From Bacilli bacterium (GTDB lineage: Bacteria > Bacillota_I > Bacilli_A > RFN20 > CAG-826), in contig JAKSVB010000011.1 of NCBI GenBank assembly GCA_024408335.1, forward strand, positions 1-38,868: 38,868 bases of DNA. The letters run 5' to 3'. The stretch's first letter is position 1. Every line of letters starts with the position of its first letter. Made by a program: the position numbers and the translations under genes. The notes beneath the pieces are model-generated. The model saw nothing but the letters and a program-made list of their open reading frames with translations. It did no database searches and was not told the origin of the DNA. Positions 18,065-30,469 of the stretch are shown here, piece after piece.

Positions 18065-21000
18065 ATGTCTGAACAAATCAAAAAGACTTTCAAATCAGTA
18101 GACGGCAACACAGCTGCTTCTATTGAAAGCTACTACTTCACCGAAGTAGCCGCTATCTTCCCTATCACTCCTTCATCACCAATGGCCGAAAATGTTGACG
18201 CAATGTCAGCTAAAGGCGAATTGAACTTCTTTGATTCAACCGTCAAAGTTGTTGAGATGCAGAGTGAAGCCGGCGCATCAGGCGCTGTCCACGGAGCCCT
18301 TCAAGCAGGTGCCTTATCAACAACCTACACCGCTTCACAAGGTCTTCTTCTCATGATCCCAAACATCTACAAATGGGTCGGAGAATTACTTCCAGCTGTT
18401 CTTCACGTTTCAGCTCGTAGCTTAGCCACCAGAGCACTTTCAATCTTCGGTGACCACGCTGACGTTTATGCATGCCGCCAAACCGGCATCACCATGCTCT
18501 GCTCAGGCAGTGTCCAAGAAATCGCTGACTTAGCACCAGTTGCTCACTTAGCCGCAATCGACGCTTCAGCACCAGTTTTACACTTCTTCGACGGTTTCCG
18601 TACCTCACACGAAGTCCAAAACGTTGAATTCGTTGACAAAGAAGAATGGAAGAAACTTCTTCCTATGGATAAGGTCGAGGCTTACAAAGCACGCGCTCTT
18701 AACCCACACACCCACCCAGTTACCCGTGGTGGCGCTGAAAACGATGATATCTACTTCCAAGCACGTGAAGCTCAAAACTCACACTTCCAAGCTATCATCC
18801 CAGTCGTTGAGAAATACTTAAAAGAAGCATCACGTCTTACCGGACGTAACTACGCTCCATTCGTTTACTATGGTGCACCAGACGCAGAAAAGATCATTAT
18901 CGCTATGGGTAGCGTTACCGAAACCGCTAGCGAAGTCGTCGATGCATTAATGGCAAAAGGCGAAAAAGTCGGTCTTATCAAAGTCCACCTTTACCGTCCA
19001 TTCAGCACCAAGCTCTTAGTCGAAGCTATCCCAGCTTCAGTTAAGAAGATCGCTGTTCTCGACAGAACCAAAGAAGATGGTGCAGAAGGCGAACCTCTCT
19101 ATCTCGATGTCATTGCAGCTCTTGCTCAAGAAAACCGCCACATCGATATGGTTATCGGTGGCCGTTATGGCTTATCCTCAAAGGATACCCAACCAAAAGA
19201 CGTCAAAGCAGTCTATGACTTCCTTGATGCAGAAAAGACCTGGACTGGTTTCACCGTTGGTATCAACGATGACGTCACCCACCTTAGCATCCCAGTCGAT
19301 CCATCATTCCACATCGATTCAGATTGCACTGAATGCTTATTCTATGGCTTAGGCTCAGACGGTACAGTTTCTGCTAACAAGTCATCAGTCAAGATCATCG
19401 GTGATGCAACTGGCAAATATGCTCAAGCATACTTCCAATATGACTCACGTAAAGCTGGTGGTACAACCCGTTCACACTTACGTTTCGGTAGCACCCCAAT
19501 CCGTGCAGAATACTATGTCAAGAACGCAGACTTCATCTCCTGTTCACTTGATACATACATCTTCAAATTCGATATCATCAACAACCTTAAGGTTGGTGGT
19601 ACCTTCCTCCTTAACACAGACATGGACGATGCAGCTCTTGAAAAAGCAATGCCAAACCGCATGAAGCATCTCCTTGCTGAAAAGAAAGCAAACTTCTATG
19701 TCATCGACGCTAACAAGTTAGCTGCCGAATGTGGCATGGGCCGTCACACCAACACCACCCTCCAAGCTGCCTTCTTCAAACTTTCACCAGACATCATGCC
19801 TTACGAAGAGGCTGAAAAGTGGATGAAGAAGTTCGCTCAAAAGACCTATGAAAAGAAGGGTATGGATGTTGTCGAAAAGAACTGGAACGCTATCGACGCA
19901 GGTACCAAAGGTCTCCGTAAAATCGAAATCAAACCAGAATGGCTCGACCTCCCAGCTGCAAAAGCTGCCCTCGCAGATACAGGTGACACCTACTATGATG
20001 AATACATCGGTGTTATCGATCGCTTAGATGGTGATGAACTCCCAACCAGCGAATTCATGAAATATGAACTCCTCGATGGCACAATGAATGAAAACATCAC
20101 CTTCAGAACCAAGAGAGCTATCGCTGACCGTGTCCCACTTTGGAACCCAGCCAACTGTATCGAATGTAACCAATGTGCATTCGTTTGCCCTCACGCAACA
20201 ATCCGTCCATATCTCATTAATGAAGAAGAACTCGCTGGAGCTCCTGAACTCGTTAAGAATGGCGTCAAACCAGTCATCGGTCTTCCAAAGACAGCTGATC
20301 AATCACTCAAATACCGTATCCAAGTTTCAACCATGAACTGTGTCGGTTGTGGTCTCTGTGTTGCCGAATGTATGGCTAACCAAACCGCTAAGAAGATGGG
20401 TACTGACAAATACGCTCTTACAATGGTCGACGCTAAAGGACAATTCGCAGAACAAGCAGGCGCTGATTATCTCTACTATCACTGCGCTACTAAGGGTGAA
20501 GTCTTCCCAACCAACACTGTTAAAGGTGTCAGCTTCCTCCGTCCATACATGGAAGTCTCTGGCGCTTGCGCAGGCTGTGGTGAAGCTCCATACTACCGCT
20601 TACTCTCACAACTCTTTGGTAAAGACATGCTCGTTGCTAACGCAACCGGTTGTTCATCAATCTACTGTGGTTCAACCCCACTTACTCCATTCGTCAAAGA
20701 CGAAAATGGTGAAGGTGTCGCTTGGGCTAACTCACTCTTCGAAGACAACGCTGAATACGGCTTCGGTATGAGAATCGCTGCTGACTACCAAGTCAACCAA
20801 GTCATCCGCATCTTAAAGAAAGCTATGGCTTGCGACCAAGCAGAAGCAGAACTCAAAGACCTCGCTGCTAAATATGTCGCTGCTCTCGAAGGCAAAGACA
20901 GAAAGACCCAACGCGCTCTTGTCGAAGACCTCAAGAAGGCTGTCGACGCTTCAAAGTGCGAAGGTGTCAAAGAACTTCAAAAGTACTATCGCGATCTCAT

Positions 21001-21652
21001 CGACAAGTCAGTCTGGATCATCGGTGGTGACGGATGGGCATACGATATCGGCTACGGCGGTCTCGATCACGTTATCGCTAACGAAGCTGATGTCAACATC
21101 CTTGTCCTTGATACTGAAGTCTACTCCAACACTGGTGGTCAAGCTTCAAAATCATCACAAACCGGTTCCATCAACAAGTTCACCGCTTCAGGTAAGAAAG
21201 AAGCCAAGAAGAACCTTGCTCTCATCGCAATGTCTTATGGCCACGTCTACGTTGCACAAATCGCTCTCGGCGCAAACCCAATGAAAGCTATCCAAGCTCT
21301 CAAGGACGCTGAATCATACAACGGCCCATCACTCGTCATCTGCTACTGCCCATGTGCTGAACAACACATCAAAGGCGGCCTCGTCAACTCAATCAGCGAA
21401 GAAAAGAAAGCAGTTGAATGTGGTTACTTCACAACCTTCCGCTTCGATCCAAGAAATGCTGCCGCTGGCAAGCCACTCCTTGAAATCGACTGCAAGGAAC
21501 CAGATTGGACCAAGTTCCGCGACTTCTTAATGCTCGAGACTCGTTTCTCACAACTTCCATACATCAACCCAGAACACGCTGAAGAACTTCTCACCAAGTG
21601 TGAAAAGTACGCTCAAGCACGTTGGGCTGCTATCAAGAAGTTCGGCCTCTAA
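18065..21652 (+). CDS. nifJ: Pyruvate:ferredoxin (flavodoxin) oxidoreductase
   Basis: A full-length, 1195-aa single-chain enzyme that converts pyruvate and CoA to acetyl-CoA and CO2 and reduces ferredoxin. It uses thiamine diphosphate and iron-sulfur clusters. The N-terminal half holds the pyrimidine-binding and transketolase-C-like domains (FPITPSSPMAE near the start). The two-cluster ferredoxin domain has CIECNQCAFVCP (Cys698, 701, 704, 708) and CVGCGLCVAEC (Cys759, 762, 765, 769). The third cluster and TPP domain follow (CAGCGE, ATGCSSIYCG, GDGWAYDIGYGG, EVYSNTGGQ). GGAG lies 11 nt before the ATG. It is a single-gene transcript, and the product feeds fermentation and any ferredoxin-dependent enzyme. 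Confidence 0.97.
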   Translation: MSEQIKKTFKSVDGNTAASIESYYFTEVAAIFPITPSSPMAENVDAMSAKGELNFFDSTVKVVEMQSEAGASGAVHGALQAGALSTTYTASQGLLLMIPNIYKWVGELLPAVLHVSARSLATRALSIFGDHADVYACRQTGITMLCSGSVQEIADLAPVAHLAAIDASAPVLHFFDGFRTSHEVQNVEFVDKEEWKKLLPMDKVEAYKARALNPHTHPVTRGGAENDDIYFQAREAQNSHFQAIIPVVEKYLKEASRLTGRNYAPFVYYGAPDAEKIIIAMGSVTETASEVVDALMAKGEKVGLIKVHLYRPFSTKLLVEAIPASVKKIAVLDRTKEDGAEGEPLYLDVIAALAQENRHIDMVIGGRYGLSSKDTQPKDVKAVYDFLDAEKTWTGFTVGINDDVTHLSIPVDPSFHIDSDCTECLFYGLGSDGTVSANKSSVKIIGDATGKYAQAYFQYDSRKAGGTTRSHLRFGSTPIRAEYYVKNADFISCSLDTYIFKFDIINNLKVGGTFLLNTDMDDAALEKAMPNRMKHLLAEKKANFYVIDANKLAAECGMGRHTNTTLQAAFFKLSPDIMPYEEAEKWMKKFAQKTYEKKGMDVVEKNWNAIDAGTKGLRKIEIKPEWLDLPAAKAALADTGDTYYDEYIGVIDRLDGDELPTSEFMKYELLDGTMNENITFRTKRAIADRVPLWNPANCIECNQCAFVCPHATIRPYLINEEELAGAPELVKNGVKPVIGLPKTADQSLKYRIQVSTMNCVGCGLCVAECMANQTAKKMGTDKYALTMVDAKGQFAEQAGADYLYYHCATKGEVFPTNTVKGVSFLRPYMEVSGACAGCGEAPYYRLLSQLFGKDMLVANATGCSSIYCGSTPLTPFVKDENGEGVAWANSLFEDNAEYGFGMRIAADYQVNQVIRILKKAMACDQAEAELKDLAAKYVAALEGKDRKTQRALVEDLKKAVDASKCEGVKELQKYYRDLIDKSVWIIGGDGWAYDIGYGGLDHVIANEADVNILVLDTEVYSNTGGQASKSSQTGSINKFTASGKKEAKKNLALIAMSYGHVYVAQIALGANPMKAIQALKDAESYNGPSLVICYCPCAEQHIKGGLVNSISEEKKAVECGYFTTFRFDPRNAAAGKPLLEIDCKEPDWTKFRDFLMLETRFSQLPYINPEHAEELLTKCEKYAQARWAAIKKFGL

Positions 21653-22900: not shown

Positions 22901-25756
22901 ATGGATTCCCGCAAATTTATTACTGTCAAAGGTGCTAGAGAGAACAACCTAAAGAACGTTGATCTCGTCGTCCCAAAAGAAACCCTCACAGTCTTCACTG
23001 GCCTTAGTGGCTCAGGTAAATCTACTTTGGCGTTTGAAACAATATACGCTGAAGGCCAAAGAAGATACGTTGAGTCTCTTTCTCCATACGCAAGACAGTT
23101 CTTAGGCGGAGTCGATAAACCAGACGTCGATTCGATTGAAGGTCTTTCTCCAGCGATCTCAATCGATCAGAAAACCACATCACATAACCCTCGCTCAACA
23201 GTTGGAACAGTCACTGAGATTTATGACTTCCTCCGACTTCTCTTTGGAAGAATCGGCGTTCCATATTGTCCTAAACATAACCGCCCAATCGTTGCCCAAT
23301 CACCTGTCGCAATGACTGAGGCCATTCTTAAATATGAAGTTGGCACAAAAATCCAAATCCTTTCGCCAGTTGTTAGACACGAAAAAGGAACCCATAAGCC
23401 AACTCTCGATAAACTTAGAAGCGCAGGCTTTGCCCGTCTTCGCGTCGATGGTGAATTCTATCTCATCGAAGAAGTACCTGAACTCGACAAGAACAAACGA
23501 CACGATATTGATATTGTTATCGACCGTCTTGTCATGAAAGAAGATGTTCGTTCACGTGTTGCCGAAGACGTTGATCTTGCAATCGACTGGAGTGATGGCT
23601 ACATAATCATCTACACCCCAGAAGAAGAAAGACTTCTTTCAAGCAATCACGCTTGTCCAGAATGTGGTTTTAGCATTCCAAAGCTTGAGCCTCGTCTTTT
23701 CTCATTTAACGCTCCGCTTGGCTCATGCCCTGATTGTCATGGCGTTGGCCTTACTAGAACGGTAGCAGAAGATCTCCTTGTTCCAGACCCAAAGCTTTCA
23801 ATCAACCAAGGAGCCATCCGTTTCTTCAAAAACCAAGTAGGTGGAACCACTCTTGAATGGCAGACATTCGTCATTCTTTGCGATACCTATAACATCGATA
23901 GAGATAAGCCATGGGAAAAATTGTCTGACGAAGATAAGCACATCGTTCTTTATGGCTCAGATAGGCCAATCAAGTACACTCTTGAATCCGTTAACGGAAA
24001 CATTAGCAAGAGAAACGCTCCAATCGAAGGCATCAAAGTCCTCATCGAAAGAAGATACAGCGAGACAACCTCAAAATGGATGATGCCTTTCTATGAATCG
24101 TTCATGCGTGACGCTGAATGTGAAACATGTCATGGCGCTAGACTTAATGAAGCCGCTCTTTCGGTTCGCATCAATAACCTCAACATCCACGAAGTCACTT
24201 GCCTAACAATCGACAAGCTTCTTGAATGGGTCAAAGACACCGAAACAAAACTCACAGAAACAGAACTTCAAATCGCTAGACTCGTCTTAAAAGAAATCAC
24301 TAACCGCGCTTCCTTCTTAGTGGACGTTGGTCTTGATTACTTGACCCTTAACCGCCTTGCTATGTCGCTTTCTGGTGGCGAGGCACAACGTATTAGACTT
24401 GCAACTCAAATCGGTTCACGTCTTTCTGGTGTTCTTTATGTCCTTGATGAGCCATCAATCGGTCTTCACCAAAGAGATAACGCAAAGCTCATCAAGACAA
24501 TGCAAGATATGAGGGATCTTGGAAACACCCTTATCGTTGTTGAGCATGACGAAGAAACGATGCTCAAAGCAGATTACATTGTCGATATTGGCCCAGGCGC
24601 TGGTGTGCATGGTGGCCAAATCGTTGCAGCAGGCTCCTTAGAAGACATTGAAAAAGTCGAAGAATCAATAACCGGACAATATCTTTCAGGTAAGAAATAC
24701 ATTCCAGTCCCTAAAGCAAGAAGAAAAGGAAACGGCAATAAACTCGTTATCAAAGGCTGCAAGTGTCATAACCTCAAGAACATCAATGCAACATTCCCAC
24801 TAGGAACCTTAACCGTCGTCACAGGCGTTTCTGGCTCAGGCAAGAGCTCACTTGTAAATCAAACCCTTTCTAAGATCCTTGCTAAAGCAATCAACAAAAC
24901 TGATGAGCTTCCAGGAGAATACAAATCAGTAAGCGGCCTTGAGTTCGTTGATAAAGTCGTCAACGTCGACCAAGAGCCAATCGGAAGGACCCCAAGAAGT
25001 AACCCAGCAACATACACAAAATTATTTGATGATATTCGCGCCCTCTTCGCAGAAACCCCAGAAGCAAGGGCAAGAGGCTTCGACAAAGGAAGATTCTCTT
25101 TCAATGTCGGCGGTGGCAGATGCGAAAAGTGTCAAGGCGCCGGCGTTGTCTATGTCCCTATGAACTTCCTTCCTGACGTCTACGTCAAATGTGACGAATG
25201 TGATGGCAAGAGATACAACCAAGAAACCCTTGCATGCACATATAAAGGCAAAAACATCTATGACGTCCTCGAAATGAGAATCGAAGATGCGCTGAAGTTC
25301 TTTGAGAATAGACCTCAAATCGCCCATAGATTACAAACGTTAGTTGATGTTGGCTTAGGCTATATCAAGCTCGGTCAACCAGCAACGACCCTCTCTGGTG
25401 GCGAGGCTCAACGTGTCAAGCTTGCTTATGAGCTTCAAAAGAGGCCAACAGGCAAGACGGTCTACATCTTAGATGAGCCAACGACAGGTCTTCATAGCGA
25501 TGACGTCAAACGTCTCATCAGCATCCTCCAAAGAATCGTGGATCATGGAGACACAGTCATCGTCATCGAACATAACTTAGACGTCATCAAATGCGCTGAC
25601 TACATCATCGATATCGGTCCTGAAGGCGGATATCGCGGAGGCAACATCGTTGCAGAAGGCAGCCCAGAAGAAGTGGCTAAAGTAAAAGAATCGTATACAG
25701 GTATCTTCCTTAAGGAAGTTCTCGAAACCGCAATAAAGAAAGGACAAATGGAATAG
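22901..25756 (+). CDS. uvrA: Excinuclease ABC subunit A
   Basis: UvrA (951 aa) finds DNA lesions and loads UvrB in nucleotide excision repair. It has two ABC ATPase modules: Walker A GLSGSGKST near residue 35 and GVSGSGKSS in the second half, and signatures LSGGEAQRIRLA and LSGGEAQRVKLA, each with DEP. The zinc modules are visible as CPECG...CPDC, CETC and CEKC...CDEC. The length is standard. uvrB, usually next to it, is not in the window. The start has no ribosome binding site and sits almost on the transcript start. The gene opens an eight-gene operon; lgt follows after 3 nt. Confidence 0.98.
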   Translation: MDSRKFITVKGARENNLKNVDLVVPKETLTVFTGLSGSGKSTLAFETIYAEGQRRYVESLSPYARQFLGGVDKPDVDSIEGLSPAISIDQKTTSHNPRSTVGTVTEIYDFLRLLFGRIGVPYCPKHNRPIVAQSPVAMTEAILKYEVGTKIQILSPVVRHEKGTHKPTLDKLRSAGFARLRVDGEFYLIEEVPELDKNKRHDIDIVIDRLVMKEDVRSRVAEDVDLAIDWSDGYIIIYTPEEERLLSSNHACPECGFSIPKLEPRLFSFNAPLGSCPDCHGVGLTRTVAEDLLVPDPKLSINQGAIRFFKNQVGGTTLEWQTFVILCDTYNIDRDKPWEKLSDEDKHIVLYGSDRPIKYTLESVNGNISKRNAPIEGIKVLIERRYSETTSKWMMPFYESFMRDAECETCHGARLNEAALSVRINNLNIHEVTCLTIDKLLEWVKDTETKLTETELQIARLVLKEITNRASFLVDVGLDYLTLNRLAMSLSGGEAQRIRLATQIGSRLSGVLYVLDEPSIGLHQRDNAKLIKTMQDMRDLGNTLIVVEHDEETMLKADYIVDIGPGAGVHGGQIVAAGSLEDIEKVEESITGQYLSGKKYIPVPKARRKGNGNKLVIKGCKCHNLKNINATFPLGTLTVVTGVSGSGKSSLVNQTLSKILAKAINKTDELPGEYKSVSGLEFVDKVVNVDQEPIGRTPRSNPATYTKLFDDIRALFAETPEARARGFDKGRFSFNVGGGRCEKCQGAGVVYVPMNFLPDVYVKCDECDGKRYNQETLACTYKGKNIYDVLEMRIEDALKFFENRPQIAHRLQTLVDVGLGYIKLGQPATTLSGGEAQRVKLAYELQKRPTGKTVYILDEPTTGLHSDDVKRLISILQRIVDHGDTVIVIEHNLDVIKCADYIIDIGPEGGYRGGNIVAEGSPEEVAKVKESYTGIFLKEVLETAIKKGQME

Positions 25757-25759
25757 CTT

Positions 25760-27580
25760 ATGAATTATTTACTCTTAATACTCGGCTTGATCCTTGGCCT
25801 AGGTGGAACTGGGTTCATCTTTTATTCGTTCATCAAATGGAATAAGGACAACCTCAAAGACAAATTCGAAAAGAAAGGTTGGCAGACATATATCATCACC
25901 CTCGCCGTCATTGGTTTAGGCTTTGCTGGACTAATCGGTTCAATCTTCCTTTTCCATCCTGAATGGGAAAGCATCAAGGCTTTTGCTAGTGGCGCTTTAA
26001 AAGACCGCCCAGTAAGCTTTGCTGGCAACCTCATCAAAGCGATGGTTGGCATGTTCTTATTCGCAGTTTCTTTTGCTGCCTTATGGACATCATTCTCAAC
26101 TTACTACTACAAACGCAAACTCGATCCTAAACAAAAGAAGATCTTTAGAATCATCAAGCTCGCTGCTATTGCTCCAGCTGTTTTGTCTTTCTTCTTCTGG
26201 ACCGATGCTTTTGGCGCTTATATCACCTATCCATTAGTAAGCGGCATCAAAATCGATGGCGAAGGAGTGGGATTCTTCACCCCGTTCTCTAGAACTGGCG
26301 AAGGTTTAAAAATTGCTTTCTATGCTATCGTCATTCTTTCAGGTGCCTTCATCTCATACGCAGTTGGAAACCACCTCATGTACAAGAAATACAAGAAGAA
26401 GGATGTCTTTGGAAGCACTCTTCTTGTTGGTTTTGCTTCTGGCGTCATCGGCGCTCGTATTTGGTATGTCGTCGGTAACTTCGAAAGAGAATTCTTAGGA
26501 CAGCCTTTCATGAAGTACATCGCTATTTGGGAAGGCGGCATCACCATTCTCGGTGGCGCTTTCGCAGGTATCGTCATGGGTGCTCTTTGGTTCAAACTCA
26601 CTCAAAAAGACATCGATATCAGAGATGGCATTGATTTCGCTGTTCCAACAGTTCTCCTTGCCCAGGCTTTAGGCAGATGGGGCAACTTCTTCAACGTCGA
26701 AGTTTATGGCGAACCAATCAAGGTTAGCGGCATTTGGAACCTCCTTCCTTCTTGGATCATCCAACAAATGAACCAAAGCAGCGGCGGAATGCCTCTTCCA
26801 GCTGGGGAAATGCATCTCCCATTATTCTTAATCGAAGCCGTCCTTAATTTAGGTGGCTACTTCATTATCGTCTATGGCGTTGGAAAAGGACTTAAGAAAT
26901 GGATCAAAGGCGGTGACCTTTGCGGTGCTTACTTCCTTTGGTATGGTATCGTCCGTATCATCCTCGAACCTCTTAGAGATGGTAGATTCAACATGGGTAC
27001 CGACAACTCATGGAGTGTCTGTAACTCTCTTGTCTATATCGTTATCGGCGCTGCAGTCATTCTCTCTGCTCACCTTTACCAAGCCCTCGTTGATGAAAAA
27101 GAAAAAGGCATCACTCCAATGGTAGCAGCAGGAATCCTTGTCCCAACCATCCTTTTCCCTCTCCTTCAAAGCGTCACTGTCACTAGTGGCAACGATGGAA
27201 CAGGAGCTCTTCTTGCAAAATATAGTGGCTTTGAAGCAATGGGCAAAGCGCCAGTCTTCTTAGTTTCATATATCCTTGTCGTCCTTGCTTGCCTTATGTT
27301 TGCCGCTTCATTCTTCTTAAAGAAGAAAGGCAAAAAGCAACCAGCTGAATACATCAATATCGGCGCCATGTGTTTAGCAGGCTTAGGAGCCGTCATGACT
27401 TTATTCGCCAAAGACTCCATCCCTTCAGGAAGCGACGAATTTGTTAACTTCTCATATGGATTCTTCCTCCTTGCCATATTCGCTATTTCTGCTTTAGCAG
27501 TATCCTTCATGCCTATCTTTAACGAGGCAAGACTCAAGAAAGAAAACAAAAAAGCGGAGGCAAAGAAAGACAATGCTTAA
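25760..27580 (+). CDS. lgt: Oversized prolipoprotein diacylglyceryl transferase
   Basis: Lgt transfers diacylglycerol from phosphatidylglycerol to the cysteine of prolipoproteins in the membrane. At 606 aa it is about twice the normal 260-290. The Lgt core is roughly residues 170-425: RWGNFFNVEVYG gives Arg306, Asn309 and Gly317 (E. coli Arg143, Asn146, Gly154), and YGIVR gives Tyr395 and Arg399 (E. coli Tyr235, Arg239). At the place of E. coli His103, in GGITILGG, Leu264 stands instead of the usual His or Tyr. About 170 residues with several helices precede the core, and about 150 residues with three or four helices and a Lys-rich tail follow. It overlaps the next gene by 8 nt, as in the lgt-ppaX arrangement of Bacillus. 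Confidence 0.88.
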   Translation: MNYLLLILGLILGLGGTGFIFYSFIKWNKDNLKDKFEKKGWQTYIITLAVIGLGFAGLIGSIFLFHPEWESIKAFASGALKDRPVSFAGNLIKAMVGMFLFAVSFAALWTSFSTYYYKRKLDPKQKKIFRIIKLAAIAPAVLSFFFWTDAFGAYITYPLVSGIKIDGEGVGFFTPFSRTGEGLKIAFYAIVILSGAFISYAVGNHLMYKKYKKKDVFGSTLLVGFASGVIGARIWYVVGNFEREFLGQPFMKYIAIWEGGITILGGAFAGIVMGALWFKLTQKDIDIRDGIDFAVPTVLLAQALGRWGNFFNVEVYGEPIKVSGIWNLLPSWIIQQMNQSSGGMPLPAGEMHLPLFLIEAVLNLGGYFIIVYGVGKGLKKWIKGGDLCGAYFLWYGIVRIILEPLRDGRFNMGTDNSWSVCNSLVYIVIGAAVILSAHLYQALVDEKEKGITPMVAAGILVPTILFPLLQSVTVTSGNDGTGALLAKYSGFEAMGKAPVFLVSYILVVLACLMFAASFFLKKKGKKQPAEYINIGAMCLAGLGAVMTLFAKDSIPSGSDEFVNFSYGFFLLAIFAISALAVSFMPIFNEARLKKENKKAEAKKDNA

Positions 27581-28208
27581 GCTTGCTATTTTCGATTTGG
27601 ATGGAACCCTCATTGATAGCGATCTCATGATCATTGATCTTTGGAGACTCATCTACAAAAAGTACCGTCCTGGCTATAGGCCAACAACAAGAAAACTCCT
27701 TTCCTTCAGCGGACCATCTTTTGACGATTCTCTTAGAGAAGAAGTCCCAGAGGTTCCTTCTCAGGAAATCATCGATCTTCATAACGAACACTTCGACGAG
27801 CTTTACGAAAGTGTCGTTGCCTTCCCATTTGCCAAAGAATTCCTTCTTTCGTTGAAAGAAAAAGGAATTAAGTTAGCGGTCAACACCAACAAAATGCACC
27901 TCCTTTCCGAGTGGTGCGTTAAACACGTTGGTTTTGGAGAAGACATGTTCGACGTCATTGTATCGTGCGACGATGTCAAAAACGTCAAACCAGACCCAGA
28001 AGGTATTTTCTTAGCCATGAAGCAAACAGGAATCACCGATAAGAGTGAAGTCATTTTCTTTGGCGATTCCGTCTTCGATATCAAATCCGCGAATAACGCG
28101 GGCGTTAAAATCGCCATCATGAAATCGCCAGTTCACGCCCTTCCAGAAGGAACAAAGGCTGACTATTTCTTTGATGGTTTCGATGAAGCGATGAGGGTGA
28201 TCAAATAA
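27573..28208 (+). CDS. HAD-superfamily phosphatase (PpaX/Gph-like)
   Basis: A 211-aa HAD subfamily IA hydrolase. Motif I is FDLDGTLID (Asp8, Asp10), motif II is the Thr of VNTNK, motif III a Lys in VKPDPEG and motif IV FFGDSVFDIKSANNAG. A helical cap lies between residues 15 and 80. Its position after lgt matches B. subtilis ppaX, which hydrolyses pyrophosphate, but phosphoglycolate phosphatases have the same motifs, so the substrate is open. GGAGG precedes the start inside lgt. It overlaps the trxB-like gene by 1 nt (TAATG). Confidence 0.85.
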   Translation: MLKLAIFDLDGTLIDSDLMIIDLWRLIYKKYRPGYRPTTRKLLSFSGPSFDDSLREEVPEVPSQEIIDLHNEHFDELYESVVAFPFAKEFLLSLKEKGIKLAVNTNKMHLLSEWCVKHVGFGEDMFDVIVSCDDVKNVKPDPEGIFLAMKQTGITDKSEVIFFGDSVFDIKSANNAGVKIAIMKSPVHALPEGTKADYFFDGFDEAMRVIK

Positions 28209-29119
28209 TGGAACAAATTGATATTGTCATCATTGGAGCTGGCCCAGCAGGTATTAGCGCGGCCCTTTACTTAAAAAGAGCGGGTGCATCTTTTACGTGG
28301 CTTGAAAAAGGCGCGCCTGGAGGAAAGCTCATCAATATCCATGAAGTTGGCAATTACCCAGGCATCCCTAACGCTAACGGTTTTGATTTGGCCATGTCTT
28401 TGCTTAAGAGCACTGAATCGGTTAACGCTTCCGTGACTTATGGCGAAGTCAAATCAGTTAGAAAAGAAAACGGTCTTTTTATCGTAAGCACCGAAAACGA
28501 GACTTACGAAGCTAAAGCGGTGATTGTCGCAACAGGCTTCTCAAACGTCCCATCGATCAAAGGAGAGAAAGAACATCTTAATAAAGGCGTCTCTTACTGC
28601 GCTACATGCGATGGACCTCTTTACCGTCAAAAGCATGTCGCTCTCTATGGAAGAGGGGACATCGTTCTTGAAGAGGCGATTTATCTTGAAGCGTTAGCAA
28701 GCAAAGTCACGATCTTTACCCCAGACGCAGAATATCAGGGAAATGAACTCATGAAAGAAATTCTTTCAAAGAAAGAAAAAGTTGAGTTCATTTATAATTC
28801 AAAAATCACCGAAATCCTTGGAGAAGCAGCTCTAACTTCAATCAAATATGAGGAAAATGGAGAAACAAAAGAAATGGAAATCTCCGCGCTTTTCCCTTTG
28901 TTTGGCGAGAAGAGCGCTTCATCTTTCCTTTCTCCATTAGGCATTGAAACAAATAAAGGGTTTGTCAAAGTCGACAATAATATGGCTTCTAGCGTCGAAG
29001 GGCTTTTCGCTGCTGGCGATATCGTAGATAAATCTCTTCGCCAAGTTGTTACCGCTGCTTCAGATGGAGCGATCGCTGCCACAAGTGTTCTGTCATTTTT
29101 AAGGAAGCGCAAACAATGA
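28208..29119 (+). CDS. trxB: Thioredoxin-reductase-like flavoprotein without NADPH motifs
   Basis: A 303-aa flavoprotein of the low-Mr thioredoxin reductase fold. The FAD site is IIGAGPAGISAALYL and the C-terminal AAGDI; the redox pair is Cys131 and Cys134 in CATC. The second dinucleotide site is degenerate: GRGDIVLEEA replaces GGGDSAxEEA, and FTPDAEYQ stands where NADPH-dependent enzymes have HRRxxxR. This is the pattern described for ferredoxin-linked and other pyridine-nucleotide-independent reductases of the family. NifJ would supply reduced ferredoxin. The gene order (lgt, ppaX, trxB) parallels Bacillus. It overlaps the next gene by 4 nt (ATGA). Confidence 0.85.
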   Translation: MEQIDIVIIGAGPAGISAALYLKRAGASFTWLEKGAPGGKLINIHEVGNYPGIPNANGFDLAMSLLKSTESVNASVTYGEVKSVRKENGLFIVSTENETYEAKAVIVATGFSNVPSIKGEKEHLNKGVSYCATCDGPLYRQKHVALYGRGDIVLEEAIYLEALASKVTIFTPDAEYQGNELMKEILSKKEKVEFIYNSKITEILGEAALTSIKYEENGETKEMEISALFPLFGEKSASSFLSPLGIETNKGFVKVDNNMASSVEGLFAAGDIVDKSLRQVVTAASDGAIAATSVLSFLRKRKQ

Positions 29120-29493
29120 AAATCTCATTTGAGTCATTTGGTTTTAAATATGGGTTACCTGATGATGGCCGCATGATCATCGATGTTCGTCACCTCCCTA
29201 ATCCTTATTGGGATGAAGCCCTAAGGCCTTTCACTGGCTTAGATGAGCCAGTTGCCGCCTATATTAGAGAAAGCGAAATCACCAAAGAGTTCTTAAAGAA
29301 CCTTACGGCAATGCTTGATCAATATTTTGAGGAGTCGCTCAAAAACGGAACCGAAAGCATTTGTGTTGGTATTGGCTGCACAGGCGGCCAACATCGCAGC
29401 GTTTTTGTAACCGAAACCCTCTACAAAGAATACAAAGGCAAATATAACTGCACCGTTTCTCATAGAGAACTAAGCAGATATAAGAGGAACTAA
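29116..29493 (+). CDS. Stand-alone RapZ C-terminal domain protein
   Basis: A 125-aa protein that matches only the C-terminal domain of RapZ/YvcJ: SFGFKYGLP, DVRHLPNP, LRPFTGLDEPVAAYI, IGCTGGQHRSVFV and a final HREL. The N-terminal P-loop kinase-like domain, about 150 residues in full-length RapZ, is absent: the gene starts with ATG inside the ATGA overlap with the trxB-like gene and no remnant precedes it. In E. coli this domain binds small RNAs and guides their decay. The position between trxB and whiA is that of full-length rapZ in Bacillus, and yvcK, normally between rapZ and whiA, is missing. whiA follows after 1 nt. Confidence 0.88.
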   Translation: MKISFESFGFKYGLPDDGRMIIDVRHLPNPYWDEALRPFTGLDEPVAAYIRESEITKEFLKNLTAMLDQYFEESLKNGTESICVGIGCTGGQHRSVFVTETLYKEYKGKYNCTVSHRELSRYKRN

Positions 29494-29494
29494 G

Positions 29495-30469
29495 ATGGCA
29501 AGCACAGGGAATGGAATCTCATTTGCAAGGCTAGTCAAAGAAGAATCCGCCAGAGCCGAAAGAAGCGAATCAGAAAAGAAAGCCGTTCTTTCTTCTTTCG
29601 TTCGCATCAATGGCTACATGAAGATGGGTGGAGGAAAAGTCGGACTTGAGCTTTCAAGCGAGAATAGCGCTATTGCCAAATGTGCTTATCAATATCTTCA
29701 TGACCTTTATGGCGTTGAAGTTAGATTCTCTTACACTCGTAGTGCGGGCTTATTAAAACGAATCACCTATCACGTCATCGTAGATGATGGGGCAGAGGAT
29801 ATCCTTTCCGATCTCGAAGTCGATTTCTTTAATCCAGAAAAGCCAAAAGAAGTTATTTCTTCTTCCAAGGAAGTCGCCGCCTATCTTACAGGTGCTTTCT
29901 TAGCAAGCGGATCCGTCAATAACCCTCTAGCTAGAAGCTACCATCTTGAGATCGCTCTCAAAGATGAGGGATACGCAAAATTCCTTCTTAAGCTTTGGTC
30001 AAAATATTCTCCTCATCCTTTCTCATGCAAGATGAGCAAAAGAAGAAACCAATACGTCCTTTATATCAAACGCGGAGATGAGGTTTCCGATTTCCTCATT
30101 CTTCTTGGTGCCAAAGATCAGTGCCTTGCTTTCGAAGACGTCCGTATCAGCCGTGACTTCAGTGGCATCGGCAACCGCTTAAGCAACCTCGATACCGCAA
30201 ACTATGGAAGGGTCGTCAAATCGAGTGAACGCCAAGTCGCAGAGATCGAATACTTGTTCCAAAAAGAAGGAAGGGAACATATTCAAAACAAAAACGAGAA
30301 ACTCTTTGCTCTAATGGAACTCCGTTTGTCAAACCACGATGCTTCTTTAGAAGAACTCGCTTCCTTATTAAGCGAATTGCTTAATACTGAAATCACCAAA
30401 TCAAACGTCAATCATCTTTTTAGATATATCCACACTCATGCTGAGGAGCTTAAAAATGGCGGTAGATAA
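29495..30469 (+). CDS. whiA: WhiA family DNA-binding protein
   Basis: WhiA (324 aa) combines a LAGLIDADG-endonuclease-like domain that has lost nuclease activity with a C-terminal helix-turn-helix. The start SFARLVKEES, the AYLTGAFLASGSVNNP segment (the degenerate LAGLIDADG-like stretch) and the C-terminal LSNHDASLEELASLL...ITKSNVNHLFRYI (HTH) agree with the family. In Bacillus it affects cell division and chromosome segregation; in Streptomyces it triggers sporulation septation. AGAGGA precedes the ATG. The xre gene overlaps its 3' end by 14 nt. Confidence 0.93.
   Translation: MASTGNGISFARLVKEESARAERSESEKKAVLSSFVRINGYMKMGGGKVGLELSSENSAIAKCAYQYLHDLYGVEVRFSYTRSAGLLKRITYHVIVDDGAEDILSDLEVDFFNPEKPKEVISSSKEVAAYLTGAFLASGSVNNPLARSYHLEIALKDEGYAKFLLKLWSKYSPHPFSCKMSKRRNQYVLYIKRGDEVSDFLILLGAKDQCLAFEDVRISRDFSGIGNRLSNLDTANYGRVVKSSERQVAEIEYLFQKEGREHIQNKNEKLFALMELRLSNHDASLEELASLLSELLNTEITKSNVNHLFRYIHTHAEELKNGGR

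Follow-up and report, generated by a model that had tools for sequence, protein, structure and literature searches.

Thioredoxin reductases (TrxRs) that work independently of NADPH have already been described in Clostridia, in cyanobacteria, in Desulfovibrio and in archaea. The canonical NADPH-dependent enzyme (NTR) is recognised by the motifs GxGxxA and HRRxxxR, and the clostridial FFTR family is ferredoxin-dependent (PMC10880999). In FFTRs, electrons pass from ferredoxin to FAD, then to the CATC disulfide after a rotation of the domains, and finally to thioredoxin (PMC12796991; PMC10880999). The TRi of Desulfovibrio vulgaris (DvTRi) has lost the motifs; NAD(P)H does not reduce it, and no donor is known for it (PMC5627308). 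A survey of Firmicutes found several TrxBs, and ferredoxin-dependent TrxBs, in Clostridia only, and just one TrxB in Bacilli (PMC10880999).

Here we analyse a trxB-like gene in a stretch of 38,868 nucleotides (the window), contig C3 of a 1.35-Mb genome that is 96% complete. Those of its relatives that have a name are MAGs of uncultured Bacilli, with the labels Bacillales, Erysipelotrichaceae or Bacilli, and one of them comes from goat rumen. The encoded protein is probably a pyridine-nucleotide-independent thioredoxin reductase, one that would most likely be fed by ferredoxin.

The window protein and its operon slot

An earlier note on this DNA had described a TrxB-like protein with an intact FAD site and CATC pair, encoded at the normal trxB position of its operon, and these observations were confirmed (Table 1). 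The gene lies in the series uvrA-lgt-ppaX-trxB-rapZ(C)-whiA, and the order nifJ-uvrA-lgt-ppaX-trxB-(rapZ)-whiA is kept across the family. In other genera of the family (those of four genomes among them), the same slot holds a canonical enzyme with GGGN(A/T)ALKEA and HRRNEFRG, and nifJ is still upstream. The note had also connected the protein with ferredoxin through nifJ, which does end 6.6 kb upstream. Because the family-wide order also flanks canonical NADPH-type trxB, this proximity is uninformative about the donor, and it was rejected as a sign of ferredoxin coupling. The RapZ of the window is cut down to its C-terminal domain (125 aa), while relatives mostly have a RapZ of about 300 aa and several lack it at this position.

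Table 1. Coordinates of the trxB-like gene, its motifs and its neighbours in the window
Feature	Position	Strand	Size or basis
nifJ, pyruvate:ferredoxin oxidoreductase	18065..21652	+	1195 aa; proximity reflects family-wide synteny
uvrA, upstream part of conserved slot	22901..25756	+	synteny
lgt, conserved slot	25760..27580	+	synteny
HAD phosphatase (ppaX-like) of the conserved slot, overlapping the start of trxB	27573..28208	+	synteny
trxB-like gene for a low-Mr flavin thioredoxin reductase that lacks the NADPH motifs	28208..29119	+	303 aa; ATG at 28208, stop codon ends at 29119
GAGPAG, FAD-binding, residues 10-15, intact	28235..28252	+	invariant or nearly so, clade alignment
CATC, redox-active, residues 131-134, intact	28598..28609	+	clade alignment
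GRGDIV, residues 148-153, former pyrophosphate loop, replaces GGG(D/N)SA	28649..28666	+	alignment with canonical relatives
FTPDAEYQ, residues 170-177, former 2'-phosphate site, replaces (I/V)HRRxxxR; no Arg remains	28715..28738	+	alignment with canonical relatives
GEKSA, residues 233-237, clade-specific, conserved, replaces canonical GxxPN/T hinge segment	28904..28918	+	clade alignment
RKRKQ, basic C-terminal tail	29102..29116	+	charge comparison
RapZ, C-terminal domain only (PF22740)	29116..29493	+	domain match
whiA, conserved slot	29495..30469	+	synteny

The AlphaFold2 model of the protein (mean pLDDT 85) has the fold of low-Mr thioredoxin reductases, and the FAD GxGxxG, CxxC, GD and RQxxTA features of canonical NTRs are all kept. 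With the thioredoxin-disulfide reductase model TIGR01292 it scores about 293.5-293.8 bits, below the curated cut-off of 343.45. The change of GGG(D/N)SA to GRGDIV departs from the formal GxGxxA at the final residue only, where Val replaces Ala. Residues T171-P172-D173-A174-E175-Y176-Q177 align with the canonical H-R-R-D-E-F-R, and all three arginines are missing (0/3 kept). By GxGxxA plus HRRxxxR, a protein with GRGDIV and TPDAEYQ is not a canonical NADPH-TrxR; with the TrxR fold, CxxC and FAD and no NAD(P)H motifs, it belongs to the pyridine-nucleotide-independent enzymes in the broad sense. The earlier statement that the NADPH motifs are replaced is thus correct for this protein, but the formal GxGxxA pattern persists in many orthologues of its clade (GKGFQA, GEGSRA, GTGDRA). 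This persistence may leave some dinucleotide affinity, a point that we count against our preferred explanation given below.

Loss of the NADPH site across the clade

In a reference set of 41 canonical TrxBs, 54 positions are conserved at 80% or more. The core of the window clade, with 14 members, has lost ten of them, and eight of these ten fall inside the two NADPH segments, which hold 11 of the 54 conserved positions (p = 6.3e-6, hypergeometric). For ten positions of the NADPH site, canonical relatives have a mean entropy of 0.46 bits and the window clade one of 1.71; the protein-wide mean of the clade is 1.32, and its FAD/CxxC/GD positions stay at 0.19. Several orthologues are also 2-8 residues shorter, through deletion, in the former 2'-phosphate loop. 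Conservation extends to the reading frames and to the FAD/CxxC residues, with the KG before CxxC, the CATC and the FAD site invariant or nearly so, and dN/dS among close congeners is 0.04-0.10. The gene is therefore not decayed but maintained, with only the nucleotide pocket free to drift. The loss of the NADPH pocket is clade-wide and site-specific, under otherwise normal purifying selection.

The clade has also gained, and conserved, GEKSA at the hinge, GGKL, PLY(R/K) after CxxC and a basic tail, the mean charge of the C-terminal tail being +3.6 against +0.4 in canonical relatives. We infer that these elements may have roles of their own, and the basic tail is a possible candidate for the docking of ferredoxin.

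Redox partners, natural swaps and the electron donor

A search of the genome for a canonical trxB found none. Two full-length matches to the TrxR model have TrxR-like scores, both below the cut-off and both without HRR. The suggestion that the window TrxB is the sole thioredoxin reductase of the cell was therefore rejected as worded, given a second TrxB-like gene without NADPH motifs beside nrdD. This gene (contig C12 of the same genome, G000:C12:44223-45131; locus L002, 1453-2451, minus strand) adjoins nrdD and nrdG, and at each of the five loci examined a gene of this type has nrdD linked to it. GDANSALQYA and LFDKFF replace its NADPH motifs, in a clade conserved across the family (entropy 0.33). 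As a common clade of the window type and the nrdD type was rejected in the tree (p = 0.005), the two losses of NADPH motifs are separate. The neighbouring NrdD (L002, 2369-3838, minus strand) has a C-terminal glutaredoxin-like domain (PF00462), which suggests a built-in reductant that could be served by the adjacent TrxB2.

No match to the catalytic chain of the Fe-S ferredoxin-thioredoxin reductase (FTR; PF02943) was found in the genome. It encodes a single TrxA with WCGPC, a small single-cluster 4Fe-4S ferredoxin of 58 aa, PFOR, NfnAB, a NuoF/HydB-like ferredoxin-containing subunit and a fusion protein with flavodoxin and ferredoxin domains. TrxR-like ferredoxin/flavodoxin-NADP reductases, which keep HRR and have no CxxC, occur in some congeners (three loci), and none was detected in the window genome.

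Canonical NADPH-TrxR was not found in 31 of the 32 sampled genomes of the genus, the exception being G013. PFOR is present in 31 of the 32 congeners, and the genome without a match is 83% complete. One congener assembled as a single contig (G080; 1.06 Mb, 99% complete) encodes a TrxB of the window type, another of the nrdD type and a CxxC-less FNR-like protein, with no canonical NTR. Throughout the order, a TrxR-like protein reaching E <= 1e-40 was seen in 146 of 148 genomes, and only 19 have one above the NTR cut-off; class-wide, 91 of 245 genomes exceed this cut-off, which is a proxy only, because HRR is retained by some proteins that score below it. Among small-genome Bacilli, TrxB-like proteins that lack the NADPH motifs are of at least four kinds, and often no NADPH-TrxR is detectable beside them.

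Two congeners, G133 and G013, have no trxB in the slot. The only TrxR detected in G133 is a clostridial-type FFTR (L290; G133:C76:7489-8343) with 43% identity to 6GNC; the genome is 91% complete, and may hold a second, undetected TrxR. In G013, a canonical NTR is encoded elsewhere in the genome. Given that an FFTR in one congener and an NTR in the other take its place, the window-type gene fills a role that is open to a ferredoxin or an NADPH enzyme. These swaps are indirect evidence, and the best of that kind, both for a thioredoxin reductase role and for the plausibility of ferredoxin. Homologues of L290 were also seen in three further genomes.

Taken together, we put at roughly 0.6 the probability that the window TrxB is the general thioredoxin reductase of the cell, that it comes from the NADPH-dependent trxB of the slot, and that NADPH use has ended in favour of a low-potential carrier, likeliest ferredoxin. 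In the proposed route, electrons from pyruvate or H2 would reach the small 4Fe-4S ferredoxin via PFOR or hydrogenase, and this low-potential one-electron carrier would reduce the FAD of the window TrxB. Once the domains have rotated, the FAD would reduce the disulfide of CATC, which would in turn reduce TrxA. The enzyme would thus have no NAD(P)H activity, would dock ferredoxin and would use thioredoxin as its acceptor. Three features count against this explanation: the RQxxTA motif on the FAD side is kept here and lost in FFTR, the score is far higher with canonical NTRs than with FFTRs (203 against 123 bits), and the C-terminal Trp tail of cyanobacterial FFTR is absent (PMC12796991).

Motif loss alone does not identify ferredoxin as the donor, because DvTRi has undergone comparable losses and its donor is unknown (PMC5627308). 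As in DvTRi, a NADPH-independent enzyme might be served by flavodoxin, by a dedicated iron-sulfur/flavin partner or by an unidentified carrier. We regard this as unlikely, although several NADPH-less lineages occur together in the class and the genome encodes the fusion protein mentioned above, since PFOR is nearly universal in the genus and the enzyme swapped in by a congener belongs to a ferredoxin-dependent family (PMC10880999).

A switch to NADH, in which the 2'-phosphate arginines have gone and a relaxed Rossmann site still binds NADH, seems to us rather improbable. NADH-preferring TrxRs do exist, namely the T. maritima TrxR and DvTR3 (PMC5627308), and acidic residues are common near position 173 in orthologues, many of which formally keep GxGxxA. 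However, the end of strand 2 has no conserved acidic residue, this region is where the protein varies, with several residues deleted in some orthologues, and glycine loops of the clade such as STGDRG, ATHEKG, GHEEKA and GYKDHA are hardly compatible with selection for NAD binding. Finally, a relic or repurposed flavoprotein that has lost thioredoxin reduction, leaving the work to the nrdD-linked paralogue, is very unlikely: LY does replace the Trx-contact FF and a second TrxB-like protein is at hand, but the conservation of CATC, FAD and KG and the low dN/dS speak against it, both deleting congeners carry an FFTR or an NTR instead of showing plain loss, and the paralogue type is tied to nrdD and is itself without HRR.

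Should ferredoxin be the donor, these anaerobes would couple their thiol redox balance to the oxidation of pyruvate and to hydrogen metabolism, and not to the NADPH pool. A wider proposal, which we offer tentatively and hold to be somewhat doubtful, is that in this lineage of small-genome Bacilli the whole disulfide-reducing network, with its general thioredoxin reduction and its nrdD-linked branch for DNA precursors, is uncoupled from NADPH. On this proposal the trxB of the slot would have gone from NADPH to ferredoxin in place, as a third ferredoxin-TrxR family that is evolutionarily interchangeable with clostridial FFTR and NADPH-TrxR. The swaps between slot enzyme, FFTR and NTR inside one genus make the driver of the donor change directly testable. 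Bacilli proteins without NADPH motifs are likely to be mislabelled in annotation as ordinary NADPH-dependent thioredoxin reductases; the survey gives one TrxB per Bacilli genome and, among Firmicutes, ferredoxin-dependent TrxBs in Clostridia only (PMC10880999).

Phylogeny and comparison with known thioredoxin reductases

Trees were built with the motif columns removed and without the Gloeobacter FFTR sequence (5J60), the clostridial FFTRs being represented by chains from PDB alignments. When the wider FFTR/TRi set is left out, support for the window clade is 100/100 and 100/98; the broad set gives 87/43. In trees that include two FFTRs or none, the clade groups with the canonical trxB of the order (84/73; 88/91); in the broad FFTR/TRi set it falls between FFTR/TRi and the canonical enzymes. 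AU tests on the 65-row tree disfavoured the grouping with the canonical trxB of the order (p 0.019) and weakly rejected a union with FFTR (p 0.040), a union that the 51-row tree did not reject (p 0.27). An AU test on a quick 113-row tree had preferred FFTR plus window (p 0.657), and is superseded by the careful trees. Long-branch attraction probably lies behind the placement in the broad set. The tree does not settle the origin, and the slot, shared with canonical trxB, is the better evidence; in-place conversion of the slot's NADPH trxB is therefore more likely.

The FFTRs form a clade of their own (100/99) with the window TrxB outside, and membership of the clostridial FFTRs was rejected by motif and tree. 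Of the earlier interpretation, then, the loss of the NADPH site, now seen clade-wide, stands, and no canonical trxB was found in the genome, whereas the sole reductase, as worded, and the argument from nifJ have to be given up.

Compared with the Thermoplasma acidophilum TrxR (3CTY), the window TrxB shares a TrxR fold without the HRR motif, in an enzyme that has no NADPH activity (PMC5627308); that protein is archaeal, and the comparison was made by PDB scores alone. DvTRi (5NII) is likewise a NADPH-less TrxR, with a degenerate GxGxxA and a Ser substituted for the hinge Pro. Membership of this group was rejected, in that the window TrxB has TPDA and not TQ/NGK in place of HRRD and lies outside the TRi clade. 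Elsewhere in the order and class, other families have true TRi-like proteins (six loci), and in several genomes these are the sole TrxR match. The cyanobacterial FFTR of Gloeobacter (5J60/6XTF) is NADPH-independent too and has been described as the only TrxR that its cell possesses, but its C-terminal tail has a FAD-stacking Trp, whereas the window tail (SVLSFLRKRKQ) is short, basic and without Trp (PMC12796991).

The clostridial FFTR (C. difficile TrxB1, 6GNC/6GNA) has in common with the window TrxB the low-Mr TrxR fold, FAD, CATC and the lack of GGGDSA/HRRxxxR, as well as K-L after the FAD-domain loop (GGKL here, SNKL in FFTR), PLY(K/R) after CxxC and a setting of anaerobic metabolism rich in ferredoxin. 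It differs in that identity to 6GNC is 32%, that LRQVVTAASDG of the window TrxB corresponds to PYQYIKSAGQG, with QYxKxxGxG in place of RQxxTA, and that its pseudo-NADPH domain is shortened, the window protein being longer there. The canonical Firmicutes NADPH-TrxRs (B. cereus 7AAW, S. aureus 4GCM) are the best matches in both sequence (35-36% identity) and fold, and occupy the same operon slot in related genera, yet the window TrxB has neither the three 2'-phosphate arginines nor the GGGxSA loop and scores below the TIGR01292 cut-off. The window type is apparently a further, separate lineage of NADPH-independent thioredoxin reductase in small-genome Bacilli.
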